Source: Clostridia bacterium
GTDB lineage: Bacteria; Bacillota; Clostridia; Oscillospirales; CAG-272
DNA: 36,209 nt
Assembly: GCA_017415485.1 (NCBI GenBank)
Contig: JAFQGP010000060.1
Coordinates: forward strand, 1-36,209
Direction: 5' to 3'
The notes under the pieces are model-generated. The model saw only the letters and a program-made list of their open reading frames with translations. It did not search any database and was not told the DNA's origin. Positions within the stretch are counted from its first letter, which is position 1, and each line of letters starts with the position of its first letter. Positions 337 through 29,353 of the stretch are shown one piece after another. The position numbers and the translations under genes were made by a program.

Positions 337-1398
337 TTATTTTTCAATTTCCGCAACGAAGCTGAACCAGCCTTCGTCGTAGTCGTAGGAATACTCGGCG
401 CCGAGGTTGTCGAGGGTGTTGCAGACGCTCATAAGTCCAAATCCGTGGCTGAGGGGGTCGGTCTTCGAGGTGGCGATCCTGCCGTTTTCGATCCGCACGG
501 GATTTGAGGTGTTGCGGATCGAGATATAGAGCCCTTCATCATCAAGGATGCTGCAAATGATCTCGCGGTAGCCGTCGACGCGGCGGCAAGCCTCGATGGC
601 GTTGTCCCAAAGGTTGGTCAGCACCACGACAAGCGAATCTGACGGGATATCGATGCCCGAAAGATCGTTCACCTGAACCTGCACAAGTATCTCGCTTTCT
701 TGCGCAAGCTGATACTTTTGGTTCAGTATGACGTCCACCACGGGATGGCGCGAGTTGACGCCCATTATGTGCATCGAGCGGTTCTTTTTGAGCTTATCGA
801 GATAATCGCAAGCCGCCTCGGTTTCGTTGTGCCTCAGCAGGTCGCCAAGCACCTGCAGATGGTGCTCGAACTCGTGCGTGCTCTTTCTTTGCAGGCGGTA
901 GTTCTGCTCGAGCGCGTTCATGCTTTCCTTTTGCAGCTCCATGTGCTGCTTGAGAAGGAGCGCGTCGATGTCGGCTTCCGTGCGGTTGCGACCGATGAAC
1001 TCGGTTGCGCTCAGGACCAGAACCAACGCGCAGGGCAGTGCTTTCCCCGCCGCGAGGATGAGGTAATATGCCATACCCTCATAGTCTGCGGCAAAGATCG
1101 AAAACGCTTTGTCGGTTATAAACGGCACGCCCAGTGCAACGGTCAGCAGCCCAAACCCGTGCGAGCCGTTTTCGCCGTATGCGAAAAGCAGAAGGAGGGT
1201 CGCCATTAAAAGAAACACAAAATAACTATAAAGCCCGGGAAAATCAAAGAACCCGAAAACAGAAGTTATCAGCCAGGCAAACACAAGCAGGCTGAAATAT
1301 TCGATCCCGTGAACCCGCGGCTCAAGCAGACGCCTGAAAAGCAAATGAAGAAAGCATATATGCAAAGCCGAAAACAAGGGAATAAAAAGAAAGTTCAT
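337..1398 (-). CDS. GHKL (AgrC/CitA-type) sensor histidine kinase
   Basis: Membrane sensor kinase of 353 aa, presumed to phosphorylate the LytTR regulator encoded just upstream. The first 130 residues are hydrophobic with several membrane segments. A coiled linker follows (about 140-172), then the phospho-acceptor helix with a THEFEHHLQVLGDLL stretch (His175, 179 or 180), an N-box around TNLWDNAIEA (261-270) and a G-box HGFGLMSV (318-325). This arrangement fits HATPase_c_5/AgrC-like kinases. An upstream in-frame ATG at 1491 would lie inside the regulator gene. The ATG at 1398 shares one base with the regulator's TAA (TAATG), which indicates translational coupling and decides the start. Signal unknown. 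It is the last gene of the minus-strand corrinoid operon. Confidence 0.88.
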   Translation of the reverse strand: MNFLFIPLFSALHICFLHLLFRRLLEPRVHGIEYFSLLVFAWLITSVFGFFDFPGLYSYFVFLLMATLLLLFAYGENGSHGFGLLTVALGVPFITDKAFSIFAADYEGMAYYLILAAGKALPCALVLVLSATEFIGRNRTEADIDALLLKQHMELQKESMNALEQNYRLQRKSTHEFEHHLQVLGDLLRHNETEAACDYLDKLKKNRSMHIMGVNSRHPVVDVILNQKYQLAQESEILVQVQVNDLSGIDIPSDSLVVVLTNLWDNAIEACRRVDGYREIICSILDDEGLYISIRNTSNPVRIENGRIATSKTDPLSHGFGLMSVCNTLDNLGAEYSYDYDEGWFSFVAEIEK

Positions 1399-2156
1399 TA
1401 TCTGAATCCCTTCCACAGCATATATTTTTGCTTTTGCGCGGAATAACTGCGTTCGCTTGCGGGCAGAACCGTGCCGTCGAGCAGAATGCATTCGCGGCTA
1501 CGGTATTTTCCGATATAGCGCATATTCACAAGATAGCTGTTGTGGATCCGCAAAAATCCGCATTTTTCAAGCTGATCTGCAAGGCTCGAAAGCGAGGCGT
1601 TGAGAGAATGCGTTCCTTCTTTTCTGTGAACAAGGACCTCGTGATCGTACACTTCCATATACGAAACGTCGTCAAGCGGGAACTCGATGACGGAATCGCC
1701 GTCGGACATACTGAAAAATTCGCGATCTTCTGCCATTTGCTCGACCGCCTGCAGGATATAGCGCTCGAGCACGTTGTTTCTGTTACGCTTGAGGATATAG
1801 CGGAACGCCTGGACCTCGTAACCCGCGGGGGCATAGTCGATAAAATTTGTCACGAAGAACAGCATTGCTTTTTTGTTTACCCCACGCAGACGGCGCGCGA
1901 TGTCGATGCCGTTGTAATCCTCGCCCTCAAAGTCGATGTCAAGGAACGCCATATCACAGGAGGCAAATATACTTTCGGGGATATATTCGGCGCTGTTGAA
2001 GGTGAAGAGTTCCGATTTCAGATTCAATTTTTCAAAAGCTTCTATGATCTCGGCGCGGAAAATATTCAAAAAATCCGCGTCATCGTCGCAAAGAACGACA
2101 CGGATGCTGTTCTGCCCGATATTCGTTCTGCGGATCTGCCATTCGGTCATTGCCAT
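1398..2156 (-). CDS. LytTR-family response regulator
   Basis: Two-domain regulator of 252 aa. The REC domain covers about residues 17-140, with an acidic pocket CDDD near 23-26, the phospho-acceptor aspartate in AFLDIDF (Asp73) and a conserved lysine near 123. The C-terminal part (about 150-252) is a LytTR DNA-binding domain with MEVYDHEVLVHRKEG and the signature FLRIHNSYLVNMRYI. A TTG start at 2180 is possible, but the ATG at 2156 has an AAGGAAG ribosome site about 8 nt upstream and is preferred. It lies 16 nt after the RACo-like gene and overlaps the kinase gene by one base, so both probably belong to the corrinoid operon. LytTR regulators usually bind paired direct repeats; none was assigned confidently here. 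Confidence 0.9.
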   Translation of the reverse strand: MAMTEWQIRRTNIGQNSIRVVLCDDDADFLNIFRAEIIEAFEKLNLKSELFTFNSAEYIPESIFASCDMAFLDIDFEGEDYNGIDIARRLRGVNKKAMLFFVTNFIDYAPAGYEVQAFRYILKRNRNNVLERYILQAVEQMAEDREFFSMSDGDSVIEFPLDDVSYMEVYDHEVLVHRKEGTHSLNASLSSLADQLEKCGFLRIHNSYLVNMRYIGKYRSRECILLDGTVLPASERSYSAQKQKYMLWKGFR

Positions 2157-2172
2157 ACGATCACTTCCTTTT

Positions 2173-3669
2173 TTATTCAAACATCATACCCATCATAAAG
2201 TGCTCGGAAAAAGAGGCGTTTGTTGAAAGCTCGAGGGTCTTGGCGTTGCTTGCCAATGCGCTCGCCCTCTTTCGCATTTCCGAAGCAAGAAGCAGCATCG
2301 AGGCTCCTTCGAGGGCGGCATTGCCGACTGTTTCCGAGTTTTCCGCGAGAGCGCGCGGGAGAAGGCCTATCCTTGCGGCACTTTTTTTGTTCAGATAATT
2401 GCCGAAGCCGCCGGCGATATAAAGTATTGCAACGTCCTCGGGATCGAGCCCGGCGCTTTCAAGCAGGGTCAAAAGTCCCGCACATATCGCGCTTTTGGCA
2501 AGCTGGAGCATTCGGATATCACGCGACGTGAGCGAAACTTCGCCAAGGATGAAGGGGTCTTCCTCCAAAGCGCCGGTTTCGTCCATGATCTCGCAATCAA
2601 GCAGACATGCCGCGGCATCAACAAGTCCGCTTCCGCAGATGCCGACTGCCTTTCCGCCGCCAATGACGTGTGTATACGGCGCGCCGTTGAGCAGACTCAC
2701 CTTGTCGATCGCGCCCTCTGCACCGCGCATACCCATCGAGATGCCAACGCCCTCGAAGGCGGGGCCGGCGGCTGTCGAGCAGACGGTGAGGCGGTTTTCG
2801 TGCCACACTGCCATTTCGCCGTTCGTTCCGATGTCGACGAGCATTGCGGCATCGCGCTCGCAAAGTCCGGTTGCCAGCAGAGCGCAAACGGTATCGGCGC
2901 CGACAAATGCCGAGATGCAGGGTGGGAGATAGATCTTTGCTTCGGGTGAAAGGACGGACAGATCAAGCTCGCTCGCCTTTATCACCTCGCCGAAAAGGCG
3001 TTTTGCCTCGAACGGCGCGTGCGAAAAAGGCTCTGTGTCCTCGAGGGTCAGAAGCGAAAGCATGACGGTGTTGCCCGTTATGACGGCCGATTCGATTTTT
3101 TGTGCATCAACTTTTGCGATCGATGCAAGTTCTGCAAGAATATCGCAGAGTGCCACGCGGATCGAATCTGCCAGAGCCTGCGCGTTACCGCCGAGAGCGG
3201 CTTCGATCCTTGAGATAACGTCCGCGCCGAATCCCGACTGCGGATTGAGCCGCGAGGTCTCGGCAAGGAGGTTGCCTTTTGCATCATACAGACGCGCCGC
3301 CAGAGTGGTGGTGCCGATATCGACCGCCGCGCCGCAGCACTCAAATGTCGGATCAAGCTCAAATCCGACCTGTTTACCGCCCGTGACGATCTGCGCCGAA
3401 GCGGCTGAGCCGAGGCTTTTGAGCTCGCAGTCGCCCTCGGCGAAGGTACAGCAGGAAAGGCGAATGCCGTCAGCGAGCTCTTTGCCCGACAAAAGCTCGC
3501 GCTCCGCTTCGCTCGGCGGAGAGAGCTTGCCGCTTGCAAAGACCTTGCATTTTCCGCACTTGCCGTGACCGCCGCAGGGCTTTTCGCCCGCAATTATTTC
3601 TGAAAGAGGCGAGCCCATGCGCGCGGAGCGCGGCTCGCCGTTTACTGTGACATTAATTAATTCATTCAT
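2173..3669 (-). CDS. RACo-like ASKHA protein with N-terminal 2Fe-2S domain (corrinoid reductive activator)
   Basis: Likely reductive activator of corrinoid proteins. In characterised RACo proteins, ATP use by an ASKHA domain plus an iron-sulfur centre re-reduces inactive Co(II) to Co(I). The N-terminus is ferredoxin-like, with Cys32, Cys38, Cys41 and Cys73/74 (PCGGHGKCGKC). The ASKHA core shows a phosphate-1 motif VDIGTTTLAARLYD (about 117-130), a second MLVDIGTNGE motif, GSGLVDAA and a C-terminal IAGGFGNYLNKKSA adenosine motif. At 498 aa it is shorter than the roughly 600-aa Carboxydothermus protein, so a linker region may be reduced. Its ATG overlaps the stop of the DUF2284 gene by 8 bp, and two corrinoid proteins are encoded in the same operon, supporting the role. 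Confidence 0.88.
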   Translation of the reverse strand: MNELINVTVNGEPRSARMGSPLSEIIAGEKPCGGHGKCGKCKVFASGKLSPPSEAERELLSGKELADGIRLSCCTFAEGDCELKSLGSAASAQIVTGGKQVGFELDPTFECCGAAVDIGTTTLAARLYDAKGNLLAETSRLNPQSGFGADVISRIEAALGGNAQALADSIRVALCDILAELASIAKVDAQKIESAVITGNTVMLSLLTLEDTEPFSHAPFEAKRLFGEVIKASELDLSVLSPEAKIYLPPCISAFVGADTVCALLATGLCERDAAMLVDIGTNGEMAVWHENRLTVCSTAAGPAFEGVGISMGMRGAEGAIDKVSLLNGAPYTHVIGGGKAVGICGSGLVDAAACLLDCEIMDETGALEEDPFILGEVSLTSRDIRMLQLAKSAICAGLLTLLESAGLDPEDVAILYIAGGFGNYLNKKSAARIGLLPRALAENSETVGNAALEGASMLLLASEMRKRASALASNAKTLELSTNASFSEHFMMGMMFE

Positions 3670-4216
3670 TTTCTTTGAAAAGCACCGCGCCGAAATAGGT
3701 GACGGTGTTCTGCCCGTTGATGTATTTCATGTCAGCCGCCGCGGCGAGGCGCGACACGTTGAAGCCATACGCCTCAAGCGAAGCCATTGCCAGATCGGGA
3801 TAGCGGCAGGGCTCATCGATGCGCTTGGCGCAGACCTTGCAAACTCCGCAACCGCCCGCACCGAGGTGGAGCGCCTTTTCGATCCCCGCATTGCGAAAAA
3901 CCGAGCGGAGCTTTTGGGAAACGGGATAAAACGCCTTTTTCGCGGCGACCATTCCCTCGAAATCGAAGCTATCCTCAAGCTCGGAGACGGTTTGGTACAC
4001 GAGCGCGTAATCGTATTCACGAACCTCCGCCATCAGCGCGTCGATATCTCCGACGTCGGGCGGGCACATATAGCATTTTCCGTAAACTCCGCAACCGTTC
4101 GAGGCGCAGATGTCGCGAAAAACGCGGTCGAGTTCGATCTTATCCGTTGTTATTACATTTGCCTTGTACGCGCCGAGGGCAAGTGCTTCGGCGATCAGCT
4201 TATCAAACTTTTCCAT
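3662..4216 (-). CDS. DUF2284 cysteine-rich (metal-binding) protein
   Basis: Small protein of about 184 aa that I recognise as a DUF2284-type predicted metal-binding protein. It has two cysteine clusters: NGCGVYGKCYMCPP near residues 40-53 and GGCGVCKVCA with EPCRYP about 65 residues before the C-terminus. These could hold an iron-sulfur cluster or zinc. No biochemical role is established to my knowledge, but such genes often sit beside UroD/corrinoid methyltransferase genes, as here. Three in-frame starts are possible (TTG 4237, ATG 4225, ATG 4216). None has a strong ribosome site; 4216 gives a family-like start (MEKFDKLIAEA) and a 14-bp overlap with the preceding gene, consistent with coupling. 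A role in electron supply to corrinoid activation is inference. Confidence 0.8.
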   Translation of the reverse strand: MEKFDKLIAEALALGAYKANVITTDKIELDRVFRDICASNGCGVYGKCYMCPPDVGDIDALMAEVREYDYALVYQTVSELEDSFDFEGMVAAKKAFYPVSQKLRSVFRNAGIEKALHLGAGGCGVCKVCAKRIDEPCRYPDLAMASLEAYGFNVSRLAAAADMKYINGQNTVTYFGAVLFKENE

Positions 4217-5207
4217 AATATTCATCAAAAGCGGCAAAAAATGCCTTTATGTTCTCCCAGGGGGTCATGGGCGGGATGTCACAACCCGAGGAAAGCAGGA
4301 AATTTTGATATTTCGAGCATTTTTCGAGCAGAGCGAGCGTCGCCTCGCGAACCTTTTCGGGAGTTCCCATACGAAGGATGCCCGCGGGGTCGATGTTGCC
4401 CATAACGAGCGTATCGGCGGGGACCTTTTTGATAATATCCTCTTCCATATCAACAGCGTTGCCGAAATGGTATGCCGCCGCGCCCGTCGAAAGGATCGAA
4501 TCGAGCATTCTCGGCACGTTGTCGCCGCAGTTGTGGTAGATGACGAGGAAATTATCGTCCTGAACCGCATCGACGATCTTTTTGACGTAGGGCGAGGAAA
4601 ATTCTTCCTCGAGCGTCGGCGAAAGCAGACCCGAAACGGGCTCCGCCATCACGATTCCCGATGCGCCCGCCGCCTTATACGCCTTTGCATACTCGATGAG
4701 GAACGCCGTTGACTTTTCGAGCACGACGTGGACCATGTCGGGATCGTCATAGCAATCCATCATGATCTCGGTGACGTCGAGAAGTCTTGCCGCGAGCGAA
4801 AAGGGACCGATGATGCCCGCAAAAACGGGGCGGTCAGTGATATTTTCGACGGCTTTTTTGACGGCTTCGATATAAATACCCGTTCTGCCGCTTCCAACGG
4901 CGGGAACGGCGAGAGCCTCTGCCTCATCCTCATCGGTAACGAGTCTGCCCTTGACGGTGGGCACTTCGTCCTCCGAGAAGCTGACAGTCGCGCCAAAGGC
5001 TTCCGCCTCGAGCGAGAGGTCCATAAAGCTGACCGATGCAGATGCATCGACCGCCTCTGCCACCGCCTGCATTCCGCGCGCCTGGAGCTCGCTCGACGAG
5101 ATCAGCTCGCGGACGCTGACGCCGAGAAGGCTGACCGAGGGGAACGAGAGCAGGGGCATCGGCTTTTTACACTGTTGGGACTTGAGTCCTTCGATCCAAT
5201 TTTTCAT
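4203..5207 (-). CDS. MtaA/MtbA-like UroD-family corrinoid methyltransferase
   Basis: UroD-fold methyltransferase, 334 aa. It carries the zinc-thiol signature of MtaA/MtbA/CmuA enzymes: His225-x-Cys227 in IYHNCGDN and a distal Cys309 in SSGCDIPPMTPWENI. An acidic residue in MAEP (Glu189) and GNIDPAG (270-276) also match. In methanogens such enzymes move methyl from a corrinoid protein to coenzyme M; in bacteria the acceptor varies and cannot be read here. The start is one nucleotide after the stop of the previous UroD gene, with no clear ribosome site, so translation is probably coupled. It could act as the second methyltransferase of the system, or as a substrate-specific one. Confidence 0.85.
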   Translation of the reverse strand: MKNWIEGLKSQQCKKPMPLLSFPSVSLLGVSVRELISSSELQARGMQAVAEAVDASASVSFMDLSLEAEAFGATVSFSEDEVPTVKGRLVTDEDEAEALAVPAVGSGRTGIYIEAVKKAVENITDRPVFAGIIGPFSLAARLLDVTEIMMDCYDDPDMVHVVLEKSTAFLIEYAKAYKAAGASGIVMAEPVSGLLSPTLEEEFSSPYVKKIVDAVQDDNFLVIYHNCGDNVPRMLDSILSTGAAAYHFGNAVDMEEDIIKKVPADTLVMGNIDPAGILRMGTPEKVREATLALLEKCSKYQNFLLSSGCDIPPMTPWENIKAFFAAFDEYYGKV

Positions 5208-5208
5208 T

Positions 5209-6333
5209 TTACACTCTTATCTTCTTGATTTCTTCGGCATAGTACTGCACAAGCTCGAATTTCGAGCCGGGCATAAGTCTGTGGTCGGGACAAGGAATGA
5301 AACCGCCGAGGTCGAAGAGGCGCTTGAGTCGCTCGAGTTCGGCATCTACCGCCGCCTTGTCCTTGCGGAACTCGGTCTTATCCATACCGCCGACGCCGAG
5401 GATCTCCTTGCCGTATTTCTTGCGCGCGGGCTCGAACTGATCGCCCCACACGCCGACCTCGATCGGGAACAGGACGTTTACGCCCGTTTCAAGCCAAGTG
5501 GGGATGAGTTTTTCGGTCACGCCGTCACAGTCGAGAGAAATAATGTCGATTCCGTACTTATGAAGCAAGTCGTTTCGCTTTTTGTAGTGCTTACGGCAGA
5601 GCTCGTCGAACACCTCGGGCGAGAGAAGCGGACCGCTCTTGAAGCAGATATCTTCCCAATAGTGAGCGAAATCGAATTTCAACCCTGTTTTGAGCGCTGT
5701 TTCAACGCATTTATACTGCATCTCCGCATAGGCGTCCACGATATCAGCAAAAAGCTCTTCATCCTCATCGTACATAAGGTAGCTCATACCCATAACGGTC
5801 GTAATATCGCGGATATCACCGAGAACGCTTCCGACTCTGAGTCCTATCGGGGCATCGTACTCGAGTTTTCCGTTATACTGTCTGATAAGATCCTCGCTCT
5901 TGGCACGATCCTCCGAATACTGCATTTTCGGCAGAAAGAACTCCTCGAAGGCTTTTCTGTCCTTGAGAAGATAATCGTCCTCCGAGGGGATCGAAACGAT
6001 TCCGGGCTTGAATTTTTCAATTACGCCCTTGTCGGTGAGCACTCTTTGAGAGCCGTCGGGAAGGGTCTCGATGACCTTTCTTTGAAAAGCGGGATAAAGT
6101 CCCAATTTTGGGTACACGCAATTATGCCAGGTGCAATCCCAGCCGATGATCTTGTCAAGCTCTGCCTGTACCGGAGAGCCATCGTGGACGGCACCCTTTG
6201 CCATTTCCATAGAAATATGTCCCTGCTCTGCCCATTCGACGAGCAGTTCTCCCCAATAGCCGAAATGCACGGCGGGGATGCGGTCGGTATCCTTATAATG
6301 AAGGATATTCATACAACGTTCGCGTGTTGTCAT
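5209..6333 (-). CDS. UroD-family corrinoid-dependent methyltransferase (substrate side, inferred)
   Basis: UroD-superfamily protein, 374 aa, opening with a typical N-terminus (MTTRERCMNILHYKDTDRIP). It lacks the His-x-Cys motif of its downstream neighbour. Instead it has FAHYWEDIC (222-230), SLDCDG (266-271) and a C-terminal PCPDHRLMPG (347-356), which is the pattern of the bacterial branch that includes O-demethylase-type methyltransferase I. It probably moves a methyl group from a methylated substrate to the corrinoid protein; the substrate is unknown. A GGGAGG ribosome site sits about 9 nt before the ATG. The first 51 bp are duplicated, with a 4-base deletion, at 8121-8167, indicating a rearrangement at this gene's start. 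Confidence 0.82.
   Translation of the reverse strand: MTTRERCMNILHYKDTDRIPAVHFGYWGELLVEWAEQGHISMEMAKGAVHDGSPVQAELDKIIGWDCTWHNCVYPKLGLYPAFQRKVIETLPDGSQRVLTDKGVIEKFKPGIVSIPSEDDYLLKDRKAFEEFFLPKMQYSEDRAKSEDLIRQYNGKLEYDAPIGLRVGSVLGDIRDITTVMGMSYLMYDEDEELFADIVDAYAEMQYKCVETALKTGLKFDFAHYWEDICFKSGPLLSPEVFDELCRKHYKKRNDLLHKYGIDIISLDCDGVTEKLIPTWLETGVNVLFPIEVGVWGDQFEPARKKYGKEILGVGGMDKTEFRKDKAAVDAELERLKRLFDLGGFIPCPDHRLMPGSKFELVQYYAEEIKKIRV
6283..6333 (-). repeat. Direct repeat copy A (start of intact UroD gene)
   Basis: The first 51 bp of the intact UroD gene match 8121-8167 almost base for base: two substitutions plus a 4-base gap. Both copies have the same orientation and bracket the AraC-corrinoid segment, with an offset of 1834 bp between the two ATG codons. 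Confidence 0.8.
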
Positions 6334-6351: not shown

Positions 6352-6984
6352 CTATTTGCAAAATTCAACAGCAGCATCTGCCGCGCTTGCTGCATCTACC
6401 GTGTAGCAATCCGCGCCAATCTCGTCGCAGTATTCCTGCGATACGGGTGCGCCGCCAACCATAATTTTCACTTTATCGCGAATACCCGCAGCCTCAGCAG
6501 CCTTTACAACCTCTTCCATTACGCCCATAGTAGTGGTCAAAAGAGCCGAACAGCATATAACCTGACAATTTTGCTCGATCGCGGTCTGAACGAACATTTC
6601 GGGTGAAACGTCGGTTCCGAGGTCAACGACTTCAAGCCCCTTGCCTTCCATCATCATTTTTACAAGATTCTTTCCTATATCGTGAAGGTCGCCCTGAACA
6701 GTTCCAATACAAACTTTGCCCGTCGCAACAACACCGTTTGCTGCGAGGTAAGGCTTAAGTATCTGAGCGCCCATATTCATGGCACGAGCCGCTACCAAAA
6801 CTTCCGGGACATATATTTCATTGTTCTTGAATTTCTCGCCTATAACGCTCATACCTGCAAGAAGTCCGTCGTTGAGTATCTGATTGGGATCTGCCCCCTC
6901 GTTGATAGCCTGCTGTACAAGCTCCTTAACTATCTTCGCTTTTCCCTTCTGAAGATTTTCCGAAATATCGCATAAAAGAACCAT
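6352..6984 (-). CDS. Possible internally initiated corrinoid protein (copy A)
   Basis: Alternative product of the fusion frame, starting at the internal ATG 6984: 210 aa, exactly the length of the free paralogue at 9414-10046 and about 87% identical to it by hand count (28 differences). A methyltransferase corrinoid protein carries a methyl-cobalt intermediate between UroD proteins; the GDLHDIGKN motif supplies the lower-ligand histidine. The AAAGGAG site 8 nt upstream is stronger than many true starts in this window, so independent translation is plausible. Whether this is the main product, or the fusion is also made, cannot be decided from sequence. Confidence 0.65.
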   Translation of the reverse strand: MVLLCDISENLQKGKAKIVKELVQQAINEGADPNQILNDGLLAGMSVIGEKFKNNEIYVPEVLVAARAMNMGAQILKPYLAANGVVATGKVCIGTVQGDLHDIGKNLVKMMMEGKGLEVVDLGTDVSPEMFVQTAIEQNCQVICCSALLTTTMGVMEEVVKAAEAAGIRDKVKIMVGGAPVSQEYCDEIGADCYTVDAASAADAAVEFCK

Positions 6985-7890
6985 GATTTTTTCTCCTTTG
7001 AATATATTACTGTTTTTATTTGTTTTTCCGTGAGTCAGTTTTGTTGACTGCCGATATTCGTTTGGTGTCATGCCCATGTGAGAATTGAAGTTTTTATAAA
7101 ATGAAGGAAGATCGCGCAATCCACATTCTTTGACGATCTCCTCGATAGTAAGCTCGCTTTCTCTCAAAAGCCGGCATGAGTATTCGATTCTGACTGAACG
7201 TAAATATTCGGTAAATCTTTTTCCTGTCAGTTCTTGGAATATCCTGCTCATGTGAGCCTTACTGATACCAATTGTTTCTGAAATCGATCCAAGAGTAAGA
7301 TCAGCATTGCTGCAATTATTTTTTATGATCTCTATTGCCGTCAATACAACGCTCCACTCCTTCGGAGATACTGAGGATATATTCTTTATTGAACTATCTA
7401 TATAACGCTCAACATCAATCAACATCAACAAAAGATTGCTACTCACTGCATTCTGCCATGATTGTCTTTTTTCTGAAATTTCTTTCTCAATCGTATCAAA
7501 TAAAGAGCGTATCTTCTCAAACATAGACTTGTTCAACATTGCATACGCAGTTACAGAACCGTCTTTGAAAAGTCCATTACAGTATCTAAGCTTTTCGGAC
7601 ACCGAATCATCTTTATCAGGAAAAAAACGCAGTTGCCGAACGGTAAGTGTCTCTATCTCATTTTCAAGAAAAAATCTATGCGGTATATTTGACGGTGTTA
7701 TGAATATATCTCCCACCTTGCAAGGAATTGCCTGATCGAGAACACAGTTAATACCGTTTCCTGCAATAACCATACTTATTTCAAAATAATCATGTGTTTG
7801 AATATCCATCCATGCCTTTTCAGGTTCATAAACCTTTTCGCATGAGAATATCTCGTGATAGACGATCAAATTACTTACATCATTCGCCAT
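6352..7890 (-). CDS. AraC-family regulator fused in frame to a corrinoid-binding protein
   Basis: One open frame of 512 codons joins two recognisable proteins. Residues 1-285 are an AraC-type regulator: an N-terminal cupin-like sensor (HDYFEISMVIAG, residues 33-44; TPSNIPHRF near 65-73) and a double HTH ending GMTPNEYRQ (273-281). A roughly 20-residue linker follows. Residues 303-512 are a methyltransferase-associated corrinoid protein with a helical cap and the DLHDIGKN base-off cobalamin motif, then SALLTTTM and GGAPV. Met303 (ATG at 6984) is preceded by a strong AAAGGAG at 8 nt and corresponds to the start of the free paralogue at 10046. The region may therefore yield a fusion, a free corrinoid protein, or both. 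AraC genes normally stop about where the linker begins. Codon use is more AT-rich than in neighbouring genes. Confidence 0.85.
   Translation of the reverse strand: MANDVSNLIVYHEIFSCEKVYEPEKAWMDIQTHDYFEISMVIAGNGINCVLDQAIPCKVGDIFITPSNIPHRFFLENEIETLTVRQLRFFPDKDDSVSEKLRYCNGLFKDGSVTAYAMLNKSMFEKIRSLFDTIEKEISEKRQSWQNAVSSNLLLMLIDVERYIDSSIKNISSVSPKEWSVVLTAIEIIKNNCSNADLTLGSISETIGISKAHMSRIFQELTGKRFTEYLRSVRIEYSCRLLRESELTIEEIVKECGLRDLPSFYKNFNSHMGMTPNEYRQSTKLTHGKTNKNSNIFKGEKIMVLLCDISENLQKGKAKIVKELVQQAINEGADPNQILNDGLLAGMSVIGEKFKNNEIYVPEVLVAARAMNMGAQILKPYLAANGVVATGKVCIGTVQGDLHDIGKNLVKMMMEGKGLEVVDLGTDVSPEMFVQTAIEQNCQVICCSALLTTTMGVMEEVVKAAEAAGIRDKVKIMVGGAPVSQEYCDEIGADCYTVDAASAADAAVEFCK
6993..6999 (-). promoter_or_regulatory. 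Ribosome binding site inside the AraC-corrinoid frame
   Basis: AAAGGAG on the minus strand, 8 nt before the ATG at 6984. It is read through as codons of the linker, so it is both coding sequence and a candidate internal start signal. Confidence 0.75.
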
Positions 7891-7966: not shown

Positions 7967-7995
7967 ATTATATCTTTTTTAACTCACCTTGTAAA
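7967..7995 (-). promoter_or_regulatory. Sigma-A promoter for the AraC-corrinoid gene
   Basis: On the minus strand TTTACA (7990-7995), a 17-bp spacer and TATAAT (7967-7972). The predicted start near 7960 leaves a leader of about 70 nt, too short for a cobalamin riboswitch. It could drive the whole set from 7890 to 337. Confidence 0.65.
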
Positions 7996-8111
7996 TATGG
8001 TAAAATTTCTTTTCAATAAAAAATTGAAACAGAACCATATAAATACACCAATATACATATCGAAGAATAATCTCATAATTCCTACTTTAATAATACATTT
8101 CTCCTCTCAAA
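7996..8111. other. AT-rich spacer without a gene
   Basis: Strongly AT-rich compared with the flanks. It holds a weak inverted repeat, TTTCAAT/ATTGAAA (8011-8017 and 8023-8029, 5-nt loop), that might end transcripts from 10046. No coding frame is convincing. Confidence 0.45.
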
Positions 8112-8167
8112 AGGAACGCTGTCTGTATCCTTATAAGGATATTCATACAGCGTTCGCGTGTTGTCAT
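8112..8167 (-). pseudogene. Broken 5' end of a second UroD gene
   Basis: Beginning with ATG at 8167, five nt after the stop of the preceding UroD gene and behind a GAGG ribosome site, the minus strand reads MTTRERCMNIL, identical to the start of the intact UroD gene at 6333. A 4-base deletion then shifts the frame. With the gap corrected, the text continues as YKDTDSVP, a typical UroD N-terminus, before similarity stops. As it stands the frame ends after about 26 codons. The rest of the gene is absent and AT-rich DNA follows. This is best read as the scar of a rearrangement that placed the AraC-corrinoid segment here. Confidence 0.75.
8121..8167 (-). repeat. Direct repeat copy B (UroD remnant)
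   Basis: 47-bp counterpart of 6283-6333 in the same orientation, differing by two substitutions and a 4-base deletion. Confidence 0.8.
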
Positions 8168-8172
8168 GCCGT

Positions 8173-9399
8173 TTACCTCGGATCGTAGTATTTGTCGAGC
8201 ACGTCGCTGACCGTTTGCGCCCAGACGATCAGGTTTTCGGGTCTGCCCGAGACCGTGCTGATGTCCTTGAGCACATAGTCATAAGCACAACCGTATTTAA
8301 TGCAAGCCTTGACGGTCTCCTCGACCTCGCGTTTTATGACGTCGGGGTCGGTGCTGATCGCCACGTGCGCGGGGTTCGGCTTTCTTGAAAGCACGTAGTC
8401 ACCGCCGATCTGCTCGGCGCATTTTTCGACGTTCGCCCAAGGGGAGCAGCCGATCTTTCGCAGATTTGGTATCTTTTTGAGCACGCCGATCTTATCGTCA
8501 AGCGGCTCGCAACATCCGTAATAAGTATATTTGAATCTCTTTGCGACCGAAAGCAGATAATCGACCTCGAATTCCTCGAACATTGCGGGCGAGATGACGC
8601 CAAAAGTCTGCGCCATACTGCGGCACCAAGTGGCAGTCAAGCCCTCGTCATCTAAGCCCGATACTTCTCCCGGTGTGCAATGAAGCGACGGGGTCGGGCA
8701 GACGTCGAGATTCTTTTCCACAAAATCGAGCTCTGCGTGCGCGGCGGAGACGTATTTTTTGATGATCTCGTGCAGGTATTCGGGGCGGTCGTACATATCC
8801 ATCAAGATCGGCTCAACTCCGCGCAGGCGGGTGATCTTATCCCACGGGGCGAAGTAAAAATAAGCATAGCCATATAGCTTGACGGGGATTGTGTCGCCAA
8901 GCAGGTCGGTATAAAACGCCATTCTCTCGGCGTCCTTGTCGGGGCGGAGCGTGAGAACGGGGTCGTGGAGCCGCTCAAGAGCGGACTCGTCCTCAAGGAT
9001 ATCCTCGAACTCGCGGGAGACGATGTTGTTGATCTCGTCGGTCCGCTTCATATCCGCGGTGACGGGTTCAAGTCCGATCCCCGTCGTTTCAACCGCGCGC
9101 TTGACGCGAAAAACGGGCTCATAAAGATTATCAGCCTTGAAATGCTCCATATAGTAGATAGCTTTTCTGAAATAGAGCTCGGTGTTCCGCGCGCCCTTGT
9201 CCTCGCAGATGCAGGTGAGCTCGCCGTGCGCGTTCATCTGATACCACGGGATCTCGTCAAGGATAACGGGCGGTCTTCCGGGCTTCAAGTCATTGGTGTC
9301 GCGAAAACGGCGAACCATCCTCTCCTGCTTTTCGGTGCAGACAAGCTCCATATATCGCTTTGCAAGCTCCCTGACGACATATCTGTCTTTTTCGGTCAT
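8173..9399 (-). CDS. UroD-like corrinoid-associated methyltransferase family protein
   Basis: Protein of 408 aa from the UroD/cobalamin-independent methionine-synthase-like superfamily. I recognise a conserved C-terminal half: YYGCCEPLDDKI (293-304), IPNLRKIGCSPWANVEK (310-326), SRKPNPAHVA (338-347) and VLKDISTVSGRP (376-387). This branch lacks the MtaA His-x-Cys motif; the Cys-Cys-Glu of GCCEPL (296-298) may take the metal or substrate role, which is inference. It lies 14 nt after a corrinoid protein gene and presumably works with that protein. Its substrate is unknown; methylated amines, aryl ethers and related compounds are candidates by family analogy only. No strong ribosome site was seen before the ATG. 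Confidence 0.8.
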   Translation of the reverse strand: MTEKDRYVVRELAKRYMELVCTEKQERMVRRFRDTNDLKPGRPPVILDEIPWYQMNAHGELTCICEDKGARNTELYFRKAIYYMEHFKADNLYEPVFRVKRAVETTGIGLEPVTADMKRTDEINNIVSREFEDILEDESALERLHDPVLTLRPDKDAERMAFYTDLLGDTIPVKLYGYAYFYFAPWDKITRLRGVEPILMDMYDRPEYLHEIIKKYVSAAHAELDFVEKNLDVCPTPSLHCTPGEVSGLDDEGLTATWCRSMAQTFGVISPAMFEEFEVDYLLSVAKRFKYTYYGCCEPLDDKIGVLKKIPNLRKIGCSPWANVEKCAEQIGGDYVLSRKPNPAHVAISTDPDVIKREVEETVKACIKYGCAYDYVLKDISTVSGRPENLIVWAQTVSDVLDKYYDPR

Positions 9400-9413: not shown

Positions 9414-10046
9414 TTATTTGCAGAATTCAACAGCCGCGTCCGCAGCGCTTGCGGCGTCAACGGTATAGCAATCTGCGCCGATCTTCTTGCAGTAATCCTC
9501 GCTTACGGGCGCACCGCCGATCATGATCTTGACCTTGTCGCGGATGCCCGCCTCCTCTGCCTTCTTTACGACCTCCTCCATCACGCTCATAGTGGTGGTG
9601 AGAAGTGCCGAACAGCAGATGACCCGGCAATTCTGCTCGATAGCGGTCTGAACAAAGGTCTCGGGAGAAACGTCGGTGCCGAGGTCAACGACCTCAAGAC
9701 CCTTGCCCTCCATCATCATCTTTACAAGATTCTTTCCGATGTCGTGAAGGTCGCCCTGAACGGTGCCGATGCAGACCTTGCCGGTTGCGGTAACTCCGCT
9801 TGCGGCAAGAAGGGGCTTGAGGATCTGGGTGCCCATATTCATCGCGCGAGCCGCAACGAGAACCTCGGGGACATAGATCTCATTGGTCTTGAACTTTTCG
9901 CCGACAACGTTCATGCCCGCAAGAAGTCCCTCGTTGAGTATAATTTCGGGGCTGATGCCCTCCTCAACCGCCTGGGCAACGAGCTCCTTTACGATCTTGG
10001 CTTTACCCTTCTGAAGGTTTTCGGAAATATCGGTTAAAATAGACAT
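9414..10046 (-). CDS. Methyltransferase corrinoid (B12-binding) protein, copy B
   Basis: Free corrinoid protein of 210 aa. An N-terminal helical cap (about 1-85) is followed by a Rossmann-like B12-binding domain with GDLHDIGKN for the cobalt-ligating histidine, then SALLTTTM and GGAPV. Such proteins accept methyl on Co(I) and pass it to a second methyltransferase in the cytoplasm. It is about 87% identical to the corrinoid half of the AraC fusion, but its codons are more GC-rich. TAAGGAG stands about 8 nt before the ATG, and a near-perfect promoter lies just upstream. It is the first gene of the minus-strand locus. Confidence 0.93.
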   Translation of the reverse strand: MSILTDISENLQKGKAKIVKELVAQAVEEGISPEIILNEGLLAGMNVVGEKFKTNEIYVPEVLVAARAMNMGTQILKPLLAASGVTATGKVCIGTVQGDLHDIGKNLVKMMMEGKGLEVVDLGTDVSPETFVQTAIEQNCRVICCSALLTTTMSVMEEVVKKAEEAGIRDKVKIMIGGAPVSEDYCKKIGADCYTVDAASAADAAVEFCK

Positions 10047-18071: not shown

Positions 18072-18100
18072 TTGACAAGGGCGCGCCGATATTATATAAT
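18072..18100 (+). promoter_or_regulatory. Consensus promoter for the first LRR lipoprotein
   Basis: TTGACA (18072-18077), 17-bp spacer, TATAAT (18095-18100); both boxes are perfect. It is divergent from the FAD-gene promoter. Confidence 0.85.
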
Positions 18101-18108
18101 TGTAGTGA

Positions 18109-18129
18109 GAAGAAGGCTGATGATTCTTC
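18109..18129 (+). promoter_or_regulatory. 5'-terminal leader hairpin (copy 1)
   Basis: GAAGAA (18109-18114) pairs with TTCTTC (18124-18129) around a GGCTGATGA loop, only a few nt from the predicted transcript start. A matching stem with the same loop core occurs before the second LRR lipoprotein gene (29289-29305). Confidence 0.45.
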
Positions 18130-18152
18130 GACTTACACTCAAGGAGAAAAAT

Positions 18153-21100
18153 ATGAAAAAAATAAACATTACCTTAATTATGCTGCTCGCGCTGGTGCTT
18201 GTGTTTACAGGCTGCCGCGGCGAGGGCGGCGAGGACACGACAGCTCCCCCGACCATCACCGAATCCCCAACGGTAACGACTTCGCCCGAAACATCCGCCG
18301 AAGAAACCACTTCCGTACCCGAAACCACGGAATGCCAACATTATAGCTATGTAACCGAGGAAATTACGGCATCCTGCGCAGACGCGCAAGCATTCGCCAA
18401 TTCTCATTGCATTGCCTGCGGCTACAGTTGGAGCGTGCCCGTAACTCCTCCCGCGCATAACTACGTCGACGGTGTATGCAAGGGTTGCGGCAACGCTCTG
18501 TGGTCGCTCGGTCTCGAATTCCGCACTTTTGCCGACTACGCGGTAGTCGTCGGAATCGGCGCTTGCGAAGACAGCGAAGTTATAATTCCCGCGACTTACA
18601 ACGGCTTACCCGTTACCGAGATATGGGATAGAGCGTTTTATCAAGTGAAAAATATGACCTCCGTCACGATCCCCGAGGGCGTGACATATATCGAGAGCGA
18701 AGCGTTCCTTAACTGTCCCGATCTGCGTGAGATCCATCTTCCCGCCTCGCTTGAAAACGTCACGGGAAGCCTGAGCATCGGATTTATGAACTGCTCTGCG
18801 CTCGAGTTCATCGAGATTGCCGAGAGCAATGCCAAATATTACGTTGCCGACAACTGCCTGATAGAAAAAGCTACAGGCAAGCTGATCCTCGCCGGCGGGA
18901 AGACCCAACATCTCGCAATCGGAATAAAATCCATCGGCGCGCACGCATTTTCGGGAAATCTTTTGCTTAAATCGCTCAATATCCCCGAGGGCGTGACAGA
19001 TATTCACACCTCCGCATTCGAGGGTTGCACGAATCTTGCAAGCATTACGCTTCCGAAAACGCTGAAAACGATCCGTCAGTCGGCGTTCAAGGGATGCACC
19101 GTGCTCACCTCGATTGTCATCCCCGACTCGGTCACCGAGATATATAACGCCGCATTTTCGGATTGCAAAAATCTGAAAAACGTAACGCTTTCAAAGAATC
19201 TTACCCTGATCGACAGCGAAGCCTTCAAGGATTGCGCGATCGAGGGCATTGAGATCCCCGCGGGAGTCAAAGAGCTCGGCGCGGCTTTCTCGGAGTGCGA
19301 AAAGCTCAAAAGCGTCACCCTCCCCGAGAGCTTCGAGCGCTTCGTCGGTCACACATTCGCGGGTTGCACCGAACTCGAAAGCATCAACCTGCCCGCGAGC
19401 CTCAACCATTTGGGCTTTTTCACCTTCAAAAACTGCGCCGCGCTAAAAGAACTGAATTTCGGCGGCACGGTTTCCGAATGGAATGCCGTTTATAAGCAGG
19501 AAAGTTGGAACGATGACGCGGCGTTTGTTTCAGTCAATTGCTCGGACGGCGAAGTCAAGCTCTACGCCGACGCCGCGGACGGCGGAAGCGCAGGTCTTGA
19601 ATACAAGATCGACGGCTACGGCGCGATGCTCGTCAGTATCGGTAACTGCACCGACAAAAACATCGTGATCGCGCCCACTTTCGGCGGCATGGCAGTCACG
19701 AGGATAGATGCATCCGCATTTTCGGGCTGCGACTTTATCGAATCCGTCGTCATTCCCGATGGCGTGACGATCATTAGTGACGAGGCTTTCTATCTCTGCA
19801 AAAATCTGAAAAAGGTCACGCTTCCGAGCACGCTCGATATCATCGGCTCTTGGGCGTTTGCAAACTGCGAAAAGCTTGAAAAAATCGCGATTCCAAACGG
19901 AATTATGATAATCGAGCCACGCGCCTTCAGCGATTGCGTCAAGCTTTCCTCTCTGACTTTGGGCAAAGAGCTTGAACGCATCGAGGAAAACGCTTTTATG
20001 AACTGCTCGTCGCTAAAATCGGTAACAATTCCGTCGAAGGTCATATATTTCGGCAACTCGGCATTTTCGGGCTGCTCATCCCTCGAGAAAGCAACCTTGA
20101 CCAAAGGCATCGAAATGATCGGCGATGCGGTGTTTGCCGATTGCCCCAAGCTTACTGCGATAAATTTCACAGGCAAGATCGCCGATTGGGAAAAGCTCGT
20201 TCCCTCACCGCGCTGGATGAAGGGCTCCTCGATCGAGCGCGTGATCTGCTCGGACGGCGACGCGAGGTTGAAGGACAGCTTTGACGGCACACCCGGTCTG
20301 ACTTACCGTATCGCAAAGGACGGCAAAAGCGCGTTCCTTGCGGGAATCGGCGTATTTTCAGGCAGTGAGATCGTCGTTGCGACCGAATTCAACGGTCTTC
20401 CCGTGACCTCGATCGCCTACCGCGTTATAAACAACGCTCCGAATCTGACAAGCATTCATATATCAAAAACCGTCACCGATCTGCCAAAAGAGCTGTTTTA
20501 TCAGTGCGACAAGATCCTTTCGCTGACGGTCGATCCCGAAAATCCCGTCTATATGAGCGAGGGCAACTGCATCATTGAGCGAAAGACGGGCAAGCTTCTT
20601 TACGGTTGCAACGGAAGCGTGATTCCCGACGGCGTGAATATAATCGGCGAATCGGCATTTGCATCCTGCACTTCGCTTACGTCGCTGACCGTCCCCGAGG
20701 GTGTCGAGGTCATTGAACCCCGCGCGTTTTCGGTCTGCACTGCACTTTCATCGATAACGCTTCCCGATAGCCTTGTGAGCGTCGGCGAGTTTGCGTTTTC
20801 CAACAGCACATCGCTCGAAAGCATCACTTTCGGCAGCAAGGTCAAAACGATCGACAGCAGTGCGTTCAGCGGATGCACCGGGCTGAAAAAGGTAGATCTT
20901 CCCGACACGGTAACGCTCGGTCGAAGCGTTTTCCAAAACTGCTCGTCGCTTAAAAGCATAAAGCTCCCCGCGGCTCAGACCTCGCTCTGCGGCACCTTCT
21001 TCGGCTGTTCCTCACTTGAAAGCGTTATTCTGCCCGAAAAGCTGACTTCTCTTCTCGGCAACACCTTCAGTGGTTGCACCTCTCTCGGCAGCATCACGCT

Positions 21101-22022
21101 TCCCGCAAGCGTGAGAGAGATCAACGGCAGTGAATTTAAGGATTGCGTATCTCTCACCGACTTCACCTTTGGCGGCACGGTTGCCGAGTGGAATGCGATT
21201 TTCAAGCAGTATTGGAAGGAAGGTGCGCCATTCAATACGGTGAAATGCTCGGACGGCACCGTGCGCGCGGATGAGGTCGATGAGTATGAAGCCATCGAGA
21301 TCGCGCGCGAATACTGGAAAGACATCATATCGGACGGCTGTTTTGTCAGCATAAAGCGTTACCCCACACATGAAGAGCCCTGCTTTACCGTCGTTCTTGC
21401 ACGCAAAAACGATGCGGGCAGATATCCGATAGAAACCGAGATCCTGATCGACCGCGCTACGGGCAATATCACGCATCCGGACTATTCCTATCCCGATATT
21501 CCCACGGCGATAATGGATGCGCTTATGAACAGAAGCACTCTCACTTTCACCAATCACGAGGGCACGAACGATGCGTATTTCAAGGATATCTTCCTTTGGG
21601 CGGACCATTTCGGTGCGACAACCGAGACCTTCTCCTATTCCGTATGCGATCTTGATTCGGACGGAGAGAAAGAGGTTATCCTTTTGACCGGCGGTAACAC
21701 CGTCATTCTCCGTGTATTTGGCGAAAAGGTCTACGGCAAAGAATACCCGAACAACGCCATCCCCGTGCTTTTCAGCGACGGAAGCTATACTTACTACGTA
21801 AATGCGGGAATTAAGGAATACACCTCGATGATAACCTTTGACGGAGCAGAGACCAAGAGCGTAACTATTCTGCTTCATGACCGCGGCAAGCAAAAGTATT
21901 ACGTTGAAGGCAGAGAGGTCACGCAGGCAGAATACAAAGCCCGCGAGGCACTTCTCTCAACAGAAAAGCTTGAATTTGAACCGCTCGATCTCTATCCGTT
22001 GGAAATTTATCCTCCAAATTAA
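18153..22022 (+). CDS. BspA-like LRR lipoprotein 1 with zinc-ribbon-like N-terminus
   Basis: 1289-aa surface lipoprotein. The signal peptide ends VFTG-Cys21; a Thr/Ser/Glu/Pro-rich stalk follows. Residues 61-112 hold a Cys/His cluster (Cys61, His63, Cys75, Cys86, Cys89, His102, Cys109, Cys112) that resembles paired zinc-ribbon half-sites. About 120-1040 is LRR_5/BspA repeat (units like AFSGCSSLE plus IP.GV..I) in three blocks. Each block opens with a GLEY-type beta unit and the first two close with a GT-x-EWN ... CSDG unit. About 1040-1289 has a PepSY-like segment (AIEIAREYW), an acidic DLDSDGEKEV calcium-like loop and a tail shared with the other LRR proteins here. BspA-type proteins generally bind host or matrix ligands. 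AAGGAG 6 nt before the ATG and the promoter fix the start; an upstream frame from 18072 overlaps the promoter. Confidence 0.9.
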   Translation: MKKINITLIMLLALVLVFTGCRGEGGEDTTAPPTITESPTVTTSPETSAEETTSVPETTECQHYSYVTEEITASCADAQAFANSHCIACGYSWSVPVTPPAHNYVDGVCKGCGNALWSLGLEFRTFADYAVVVGIGACEDSEVIIPATYNGLPVTEIWDRAFYQVKNMTSVTIPEGVTYIESEAFLNCPDLREIHLPASLENVTGSLSIGFMNCSALEFIEIAESNAKYYVADNCLIEKATGKLILAGGKTQHLAIGIKSIGAHAFSGNLLLKSLNIPEGVTDIHTSAFEGCTNLASITLPKTLKTIRQSAFKGCTVLTSIVIPDSVTEIYNAAFSDCKNLKNVTLSKNLTLIDSEAFKDCAIEGIEIPAGVKELGAAFSECEKLKSVTLPESFERFVGHTFAGCTELESINLPASLNHLGFFTFKNCAALKELNFGGTVSEWNAVYKQESWNDDAAFVSVNCSDGEVKLYADAADGGSAGLEYKIDGYGAMLVSIGNCTDKNIVIAPTFGGMAVTRIDASAFSGCDFIESVVIPDGVTIISDEAFYLCKNLKKVTLPSTLDIIGSWAFANCEKLEKIAIPNGIMIIEPRAFSDCVKLSSLTLGKELERIEENAFMNCSSLKSVTIPSKVIYFGNSAFSGCSSLEKATLTKGIEMIGDAVFADCPKLTAINFTGKIADWEKLVPSPRWMKGSSIERVICSDGDARLKDSFDGTPGLTYRIAKDGKSAFLAGIGVFSGSEIVVATEFNGLPVTSIAYRVINNAPNLTSIHISKTVTDLPKELFYQCDKILSLTVDPENPVYMSEGNCIIERKTGKLLYGCNGSVIPDGVNIIGESAFASCTSLTSLTVPEGVEVIEPRAFSVCTALSSITLPDSLVSVGEFAFSNSTSLESITFGSKVKTIDSSAFSGCTGLKKVDLPDTVTLGRSVFQNCSSLKSIKLPAAQTSLCGTFFGCSSLESVILPEKLTSLLGNTFSGCTSLGSITLPASVREINGSEFKDCVSLTDFTFGGTVAEWNAIFKQYWKEGAPFNTVKCSDGTVRADEVDEYEAIEIAREYWKDIISDGCFVSIKRYPTHEEPCFTVVLARKNDAGRYPIETEILIDRATGNITHPDYSYPDIPTAIMDALMNRSTLTFTNHEGTNDAYFKDIFLWADHFGATTETFSYSVCDLDSDGEKEVILLTGGNTVILRVFGEKVYGKEYPNNAIPVLFSDGSYTYYVNAGIKEYTSMITFDGAETKSVTILLHDRGKQKYYVEGREVTQAEYKAREALLSTEKLEFEPLDLYPLEIYPPN

Positions 22023-22038
22023 CCAAACTTAATACAAA

Positions 22039-22071
22039 GAGGCTGAGCTAATTACAAATGTGCTCAGCCTC
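22039..22071 (+). terminator. Stem-loop after LRR lipoprotein 1
   Basis: GAGGCTGAGC (22039-22048) pairs with GCTCAGCCTC (22062-22071), 13-nt loop. The tail GAATGTTTA is a weak U-tract, so termination may be partial. Confidence 0.55.
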
Positions 22072-22096
22072 GAATGTTTAGTTACGTGTTTTTTCG

Positions 22097-22125
22097 TTGA
22101 CAAATCACAACTTTTATGATAATAT
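22097..22125 (+). promoter_or_regulatory. Promoter of the first ECF sigma operon
   Basis: TTGACA (22097-22102), 17-bp spacer, TAATAT (22120-22125), giving a leader of about 100 nt. The leader contains a GTGAAG/CTTCAC palindrome directly before the ribosome site. Confidence 0.75.
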
Positions 22126-22231
22126 GTTTATAGATCAAAAAATTTTTCAACTTTTTTTCAAAACCCTGCAACCAAGTCCCGTTTTTTGGTTACTTGTTAA
22201 GTGAAGGGACTTCACGAAAGGAGGCGAACTT

Positions 22232-22789
22232 ATGACAGACGAAAGAATCATTGAGATGCTTTTTAATCGCGATGAGGCGGCGCTTGGCGAGATCGAGAAG
22301 AAATATTCGGCTTTTTGCCACACGGTGGCGGCGAATATTCTTGCCATCCGTGAGGATCGCGAGGAGTGCGTCAACGACGTGCTGCTTGCGCTCTGGAACG
22401 CCATTCCGCCCGAGCGTCCCGAAAGTCTGAAAGCGTACATTTCAAGAATAGTTCGCAATATTGCATACAACAAAACGAGGGCAATGGGCACCTGGAAGAG
22501 ATGCGCGAGCTTTTTGACGGTGGGGGACGAGTTCCTTGAGACCATTCCCGACACCGCGGACCTCGCCGAGCAATTCGAGGCTTCGCGCGCGGGCGAGATC
22601 ATCAACGATTTTCTCGCTTCTCTTCCCGCGCACGAGCGCCAGGTCTTTGTTCTTCGCTATTATTTCGGCGAGAGCGTCAACAACGTTGCCGAGGATATGG
22701 ATTTCTCGGTCAGCAAGGTCAAGTCGCTTTTGATGCGCACGCGCCAGCGTCTTGCGCAGAGGCTCGGAAAGGAGGGGATCATCGTATGA
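22232..22789 (+). CDS. ECF-type RNA polymerase sigma factor 1
   Basis: 185-aa group 4 sigma factor. The region-2 core spans about 20-85 (EDREECVNDVLLALWNAIPP, then LKAYISRIVRNIA), and region 4 spans about 125-180 (LPAHERQVFVLRYYFGESV, then VAEDMDFSVSKVKSLLMRTR). It would direct RNA polymerase to a small set of promoters and is expected to be held by a membrane partner. It overlaps the next gene by four bases (ATGA), the usual layout for sigma/anti-sigma pairs. An AGGAGG site precedes the ATG. It is about 66% identical to the second sigma factor at 34116 by hand count. The sigma-A-like promoter upstream does not itself show autoregulation. Confidence 0.93.
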   Translation: MTDERIIEMLFNRDEAALGEIEKKYSAFCHTVAANILAIREDREECVNDVLLALWNAIPPERPESLKAYISRIVRNIAYNKTRAMGTWKRCASFLTVGDEFLETIPDTADLAEQFEASRAGEIINDFLASLPAHERQVFVLRYYFGESVNNVAEDMDFSVSKVKSLLMRTRQRLAQRLGKEGIIV

Positions 22790-29178: not shown

Positions 29179-29182
29179 AGCA

Positions 29183-29221
29183 AACTTCCCGAACCGTTTT
29201 TTACGGTTCGGGAAGTTTTTT
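29183..29221 (+). terminator. Rho-independent terminator after the giant LRR gene
   Basis: 15-bp stem (29183-29197 with 29203-29217), T-rich loop, followed by TTTT: a textbook intrinsic terminator that closes the first sigma operon. Confidence 0.9.
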
Positions 29222-29249
29222 CGCATTATTATGTTCACAGAAAAAATTA

Positions 29250-29278
29250 TTGACAACGAAAAAATAATATGATATACT
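29250..29278 (+). promoter_or_regulatory. Promoter for the second LRR lipoprotein
   Basis: TTGACA (29250-29255), 17-bp spacer, TATACT (29273-29278). Confidence 0.78.
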
Positions 29279-29288
29279 TAAATCGAGA

Positions 29289-29305
29289 GGAAGGCTGATG
29301 CTTCC
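29289..29305 (+). promoter_or_regulatory. 5'-terminal leader hairpin (copy 2)
   Basis: GGAAG (29289-29293) pairs with CTTCC (29301-29305) around GCTGATG. It matches copy 1 (18109-18129) in loop and in distance from the promoter. Confidence 0.45.
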
Positions 29306-29353
29306 CCGAAGAATATCGAAGTTCACACCTACCATTCGCAAAAGGAGTTTTTA

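Follow-up and report, generated by a model that had tools for sequence, protein, structure and literature searches.

The window analysed here (the whole 36,209-nt stretch of contig JAFQGP010000060.1, from the Clostridia assembly GCA_017415485.1 of a gut bacterium) carries on its minus strand an open reading frame of 512 codons (6352..7890) in which an AraC-type regulator and a corrinoid protein are joined in a single frame. A first-pass annotation had proposed this frame without giving its strand. Pfam assigned AraC_binding/cupin to residues 30–101 of the predicted 512-aa protein, HTH_18 to 204–281, B12-binding_2 to 309–379 and B12-binding to 392–506. The AraC half (residues 1–284; 7039..7890, minus strand), which consists of a cupin-like N-terminal domain and an AraC helix-turn-helix (HTH) region also matching HTH_AraC, was mostly modelled with confidence by AlphaFold2 and ends at about residue 284, the normal end of AraC proteins, as annotated. 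The two-HTH DNA-binding domain matched HTH_18 with an E value of 6e-20 (71.7 bits against a cut-off of 33.6); the cupin-type domain, strand-rich in the model, matched AraC_binding at 21.6 bits, barely above the cut-off of 21.1. A linker of 18 codons follows (residues 285–302; 6985..7038, minus strand), partly disordered in the model. It had been described as some 20 codons of former spacer, and this fits, since the linker is read through in frame and contains the carrier's ribosome site: a Shine-Dalgarno (SD) sequence AAAGGAG (6993..6999, read from 6999 to 6993) lies exactly 8 nt upstream of an internal ATG (6982..6984) encoding Met303, at the spacing reported. From Met303 to the end of the frame (6352..6984) extends the complete 210-residue corrinoid protein that had been claimed, with DxHxxG at residues 401–406. 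The fused domain thus has the composition of a methyl carrier, namely B12-binding_2 together with B12-binding carrying DxHxxG, and from these motifs it is expected to bind a corrinoid.

Downstream of the fusion, on the same strand, lie in order a 374-aa URO-D superfamily protein (Pfam URO-D; 5209..6333), a MtaA/CmuA-like methyltransferase of the same superfamily with HxCG and a downstream Cys (4203..5207), a DUF2284 metal-binding protein of uncertain start (3662..4237) and a RACo/RamA-like corrinoid reductive activase (RACo_C_ter, Raco_middle; 2173..3669). The gene therefore stands beside its own methyltransferases and reductive activase, as expected of a methyl carrier. The 374-aa protein is the candidate substrate methyltransferase; it belongs to a conserved partner family, carries no HxC zinc motif and has no solved relatives detectable by sequence. 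The activase corresponds to recurrent neighbour family 2, and family 3 resembles, in a comparison by eye only, the DUF2284 protein, a recurrent member of these operons. Because the simple gene caller sometimes chose antisense reading frames, statements on neighbours rest on homology families. A GHKL-type sensor kinase and a LytTR response regulator (337–2180, minus strand) lie directly downstream of the RACo-like gene. Farther off in the window, 18072–33901 is occupied by a row of three giant leucine-rich-repeat proteins of BspA type (1316, 2130 and 1515 aa).

Upstream of the fusion, a neighbouring unit on the minus strand, absent from the first-pass annotation, contains a free corrinoid carrier paralogue of 210 aa (9414..10046), 86.7% identical to the fused domain, followed by a weakly URO-D-like protein of 408 aa (8173..9399; E 6e-4, below the Pfam cut-off). 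Just after the latter gene there is a relic of about 50 nt (8118..8167, minus strand), which matches the first 18 codons of the 5209..6333 gene at 87% identity. To judge from its sequence, the relic looks like a scar of duplication, recombination or insertion, and it suggests an older free-carrier operon next to which the fusion operon either arrived or was duplicated. Since this genome has a second, free carrier, dual expression from the fusion gene may be redundant here, and the internal start is still intact.

The window comes from a draft metagenome-assembled genome (86.9% complete, 154 contigs), in which an assembly or sequencing artefact might have produced the fusion. Across 84,980 species genomes, a survey found 79 loci, to which loci from a further genome search were added; among them, AraC half and carrier were fused in one frame at 50 loci including that of the window, all from Clostridia and representing about 50 species. 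As the same architecture was found in independent assemblies from many studies, the chance that it is an artefact is negligible. The database search for the same fusion that had been advised was therefore successful, and the finding of only split forms in relatives, named beforehand as grounds for abandoning the idea, does not apply, because the fusion is conserved across these species. Relative to the window's protein, AraC halves of the other fused loci are 32–59% identical and carrier domains 61–84%. Linkers range from 6 to 22 codons, and no stop occurs in their 632 codons (from base composition, ln P is about −37, with loci treated as independent). Three more fused genes outside the 50 (L119, L120 and L127) all have the internal start; L127, 44% identical, comes from elsewhere in the class. 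Broad sampling showed the fusion to be rare: it was present in 9 of 394 genomes when the order was sampled, in 2 of 391 at class level and in 1 of 299 at phylum level, with the window's own genome included in each count.

The stop-free linkers also bear on a second explanation, that ordinary neighbours, an AraC gene and a carrier gene, were joined by chance loss of a stop and that the long form has no role. There is a second group of loci in which a separate large AraC-type gene ends just before a free carrier gene, an arrangement that counts in favour of this explanation. Against this stand 50 in-frame loci with uninterrupted linkers, and 12 loci where the internal start is lost or weak and both domains are nevertheless conserved. 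We therefore give joining by chance only a very small probability; artefact and chance fusion are rejected, and it is practically certain that the fusion is real and conserved.

Several other arrangements of these domains were observed. At L012, L016, L018, L021, L026, L032, L034, L084, L089 and L094, a separate AraC-type gene of a different type shares its strand with a free corrinoid gene and stops a short distance before it; judged by sequence, such pairs are possibly the unfused counterpart. L133 (2686–5373, minus strand; G808:C45) encodes an 895-aa AraC-corrinoid-URO-D methyltransferase triple fusion in one frame, of which the first junction has no start and the corrinoid/URO-D junction has an SD and ATG (−10.4 kcal/mol). 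At L132 (1956–3929, plus strand; G097:C13), a URO-D methyltransferase and a corrinoid domain are fused in one 657-aa reading frame.

An internal start was scored when an in-frame ATG lay at the first residue of the carrier, or at most two codons away, with an SD energy of −8 or lower. An SD and ATG of this kind are present at the junction in 37 of the 50 fused loci, under a class limit (−8) for an intact start that was chosen post hoc, when the data were already known. The median SD energy at the junctions (−9.3 kcal/mol) equals that of free carrier genes; other in-frame ATGs of the same genes give −3.1. It can be seen, first, that the junction SD is spelled in differing codon phases, giving the peptides KGE, QKES, TEEK or NKEK. 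Secondly, it is stronger (mean −9.36) than in synonymous recodings (−7.99, sd 0.38), with none of 300 recodings as low. These two results indicate that the nucleotides, beyond the peptide alone, are under selection. A conserved SD, an in-frame start at a domain border and selection at the nucleotide level together point to a functional internal start.

In 12 of 50 fused loci the internal start has either disappeared or become much weaker; both domains are still conserved there, and in all 12 the genome has a separate free carrier gene. Eleven of these loci carry the free carrier in the same locus, 18–2247 nt downstream; at the twelfth, L081, the contig ends 132 nt downstream and the genome carries its free copy on a different contig. 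By contrast, 34 of the remaining 38 loci are in genomes without a second close carrier (E <= 1e-50). The association between loss of the start and a free carrier at genome level is significant (Fisher p=1.5e-8), and stays at about 1e-6 or better when the borderline loci L040 and L057 are moved; L040 combines a retained ATG with a weak SD, and its genome has no second carrier. On the tree of AraC halves the start character changed at least 8 times, and the losses are independent. When a free copy in the locus is the criterion, all 8 independent pairs point as expected (p=0.0078); when the whole genome is considered, 5–7 pairs agree, 1–3 are ties and none is opposed (median p=0.03). The exceptions, which have an intact start in spite of another carrier gene, are the window genome, G001, G447 and G438, so that the dual product is not strictly needed there.

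Start-less fusions and their free partners have diverged. A carrier-domain tree pairs each of the fused domains of L062 and L072 with its own free partner as sister; those of L071 and L076 group near theirs, and the fused copies sit on longer branches. In 11 of 11 in-locus pairs, the free copy is closer to the window's carrier domain than the fused copy is. Across 75 near-invariant carrier columns, start-less fused domains have 1–9 breaks each, compared with means of 0.29 in start-bearing fused domains and 0.59 in free carriers. This pattern, read from the sequences, fits duplication followed by division of labour. DxHxxG is retained in every fused domain, those of start-less loci included, as are the S-x-L-L-T and GGAP motifs in all start-less fusions, and corrinoid binding itself thus appears to be selected in the regulator.

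The opposite change was also found. At L101 and L014 there is no AraC half, and the former internal SD and ATG have been kept as the sole start; at L101 the AraC half is gone except for a degenerate tail remnant with a stop, and at L014 the AraC-tail stretch is short and degenerate. No other close carrier copy was found in the genomes of these two loci.

These observations bear on a further possibility, that a single protein does both jobs, the 512-aa fusion acting as regulator and methyl carrier while the internal ribosome site is a relic yielding little or no free carrier. Two observations favour it: the fused domain retains nearly all carrier-type invariant residues, and most genomes have no other close carrier. 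Against it stands an SD that is stronger than under synonymous recoding and held in different codon phases. The constant company of a separate free carrier at start-less loci suggests, in addition, that the fused form alone is insufficient, and at the AraC-less L101 and L014 the former internal start is the one in use. We consider a single dual-function protein quite improbable. The idea that both a B12-bound regulator and a free carrier come from one gene, raised in the first-pass annotation as one of several options, gains comparative support from the conserved fusion, the selected start, the loss of the start only where a free carrier exists, and L101 and L014. On this sequence evidence, a dual product in the family is very probable.

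About 40 of the 50 fused loci share a bipartite motif (TATGGTTTTGTTTC, about 24 nt, AAACCATATTTAC), with its second part at the −35 region, upstream of the fusion gene or of a URO-D gene preceding it; some 10 loci have no recognisable operator. In the window, this candidate operator (34.6 bits) consists of half-site 1, TATGGTTCTGTTTCA (8025..8039, minus strand), and half-site 2, TTTACCATATTTAC (7991..8004, minus strand), of which the latter overlaps the −35 of the predicted fusion-operon promoter TTTACA-17-TATAAT (7967..7995, minus strand). That promoter matches the consensus at 11 of 12 positions, the best in the region, and its spacing to the operator is similar in relatives. The −10 element at operator-bearing promoters is TG-extended in 31 of 39 cases. 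The matrix was trained on 20 sites, and many others were found outside the training set. Among carrier genes outside the fused loci, 5 of 59 score at least 17 bits: one (L099) is the L081 genome's separate carrier, another is the AraC-less L014, and the other three are without the usual promoter context. Throughout the window genome, a strict pattern found only the window site (8039–7991) and one weak match. Because the two arms covary only weakly (one position at p=0.03, a second showing none), the operator is termed inverted-repeat-like. The simplest reading of these sequences is that the long form autoregulates its operon through the conserved −35 site; we infer DNA binding at the operator and, likewise, the direction of regulation. 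A comparison of the window with Rfam matched no known RNA, cobalamin riboswitches included.

AlphaFold2 modelling with 43 fused sequences gave a pLDDT of 86.5 and a pTM of 0.42, with linker residues 288–296 below 50. At this pTM the domains are confident, and no defined arrangement of them or coupling between them is predicted. Foldseek matched MttC, 4jgi, MetH, CarH and a MerR-family B12 domain, together with the AraC-family proteins ToxT, Rns and CsvR. Like the CarH/LitR-type MerR B12 photoreceptors, the fusion combines a DNA-binding domain with a helical-bundle and Rossmann B12-binding domain; unlike them, it has an AraC HTH in place of MerR, a domain of the methyl-carrier type and, apparently, a free carrier from the same gene. 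The W...EH adenosylcobalamin light signature of CarH (PMC11796333) is present in none of the 50 fused proteins, and CarH-like light sensing is therefore rejected. The C-terminal 210 aa are a complete homologue of the free carriers MttC, MtbC, MtaC and MtgC (MtgC, pyl_corrinoid; 1y80, 7xcn, 3ezx, 4jgi), from which the window domain differs in scoring below every NCBIfam curated cut-off and in its fusion to an AraC regulator. With AraC/XylS regulators such as ToxT, Rns and AraC, the protein shares the cupin-like N-terminus, the paired HTH and a putative bipartite site by the −35; the C-terminal corrinoid carrier of 210 aa is additional. The mlp gene clusters described by Kountz and Balskus (PMC10418091) differ in that the candidate substrate protein at 5209..6333 has no HxC zinc motif, and AraC is not mentioned in the main text of that publication. 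Cas11b within cas8b (PMC11899642) is likewise a case of one gene giving a long protein and a separate part from an internal start, whereas here the long product would regulate transcription and the short one would carry an enzyme's cofactor. No published AraC-corrinoid fusion was found in full-text searches of the open-access literature, the scope of which does not extend to subscription papers.

There is another view of the signal. The gene might give two products, with the cupin domain sensing the substrate and the corrinoid domain only docking on the methyltransferase or reporting B12 supply. This explanation overlaps with the preferred one on the dual product and differs on what is sensed. 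The cupin domain does occupy the usual effector-domain position of AraC proteins and has some invariant residues, and the two halves are modelled without a confident arrangement; but the three carrier motifs are kept in the start-less fusions in every case. We regard substrate sensing by the cupin domain as rather unlikely.

The reading we prefer, to which we assign a probability of roughly three in four on the sequence evidence, is that of a dual-product gene whose long form would be a corrinoid-state autoregulator and whose short form would be the carrier of the operon. One gene within a corrinoid methyltransferase operon would thus supply both regulator and carrier. Full-length translation would give the AraC-type regulator with a C-terminal corrinoid domain of the methyl-carrier type; translation from Met303 would give a free 210-aa carrier serving the URO-D methyltransferases and the RACo-like activase of the operon. 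The long form would bind the bipartite inverted-repeat-like operator at the −35 of its own operon promoter and would most likely activate the operon in response to whether its corrinoid is methylated, reduced or absent. That it senses the corrinoid state is what we think probable; specific sensing of the methylation state is more tentative, at somewhat less than even odds. One set of enzymes would serve regulator and carrier alike in loading, reduction and methylation. As the same B12 part is in both products, the control protein would be built from a part of the enzyme system under control. The sensor would then be the system's own carrier, made from the same gene by way of an internal start, and may read the methylation or redox status of cobalamin through being processed by the methyltransferases and activase that act on the free carrier, a proposal for which we put the chances at slightly under even.

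Regulation of the many corrinoid methyltransferase systems of anaerobes is described as largely unexplored (PMC13222342). If the preferred reading is true, the fusion would represent a new class of gene regulation by B12 in these organisms and would extend the B12-based regulators to the AraC type. A regulator built from a carrier would offer a direct route from methyl transfer to transcription, and the family makes it possible to trace an internal start over about 50 species, including how it is lost and how a separate gene takes its place.
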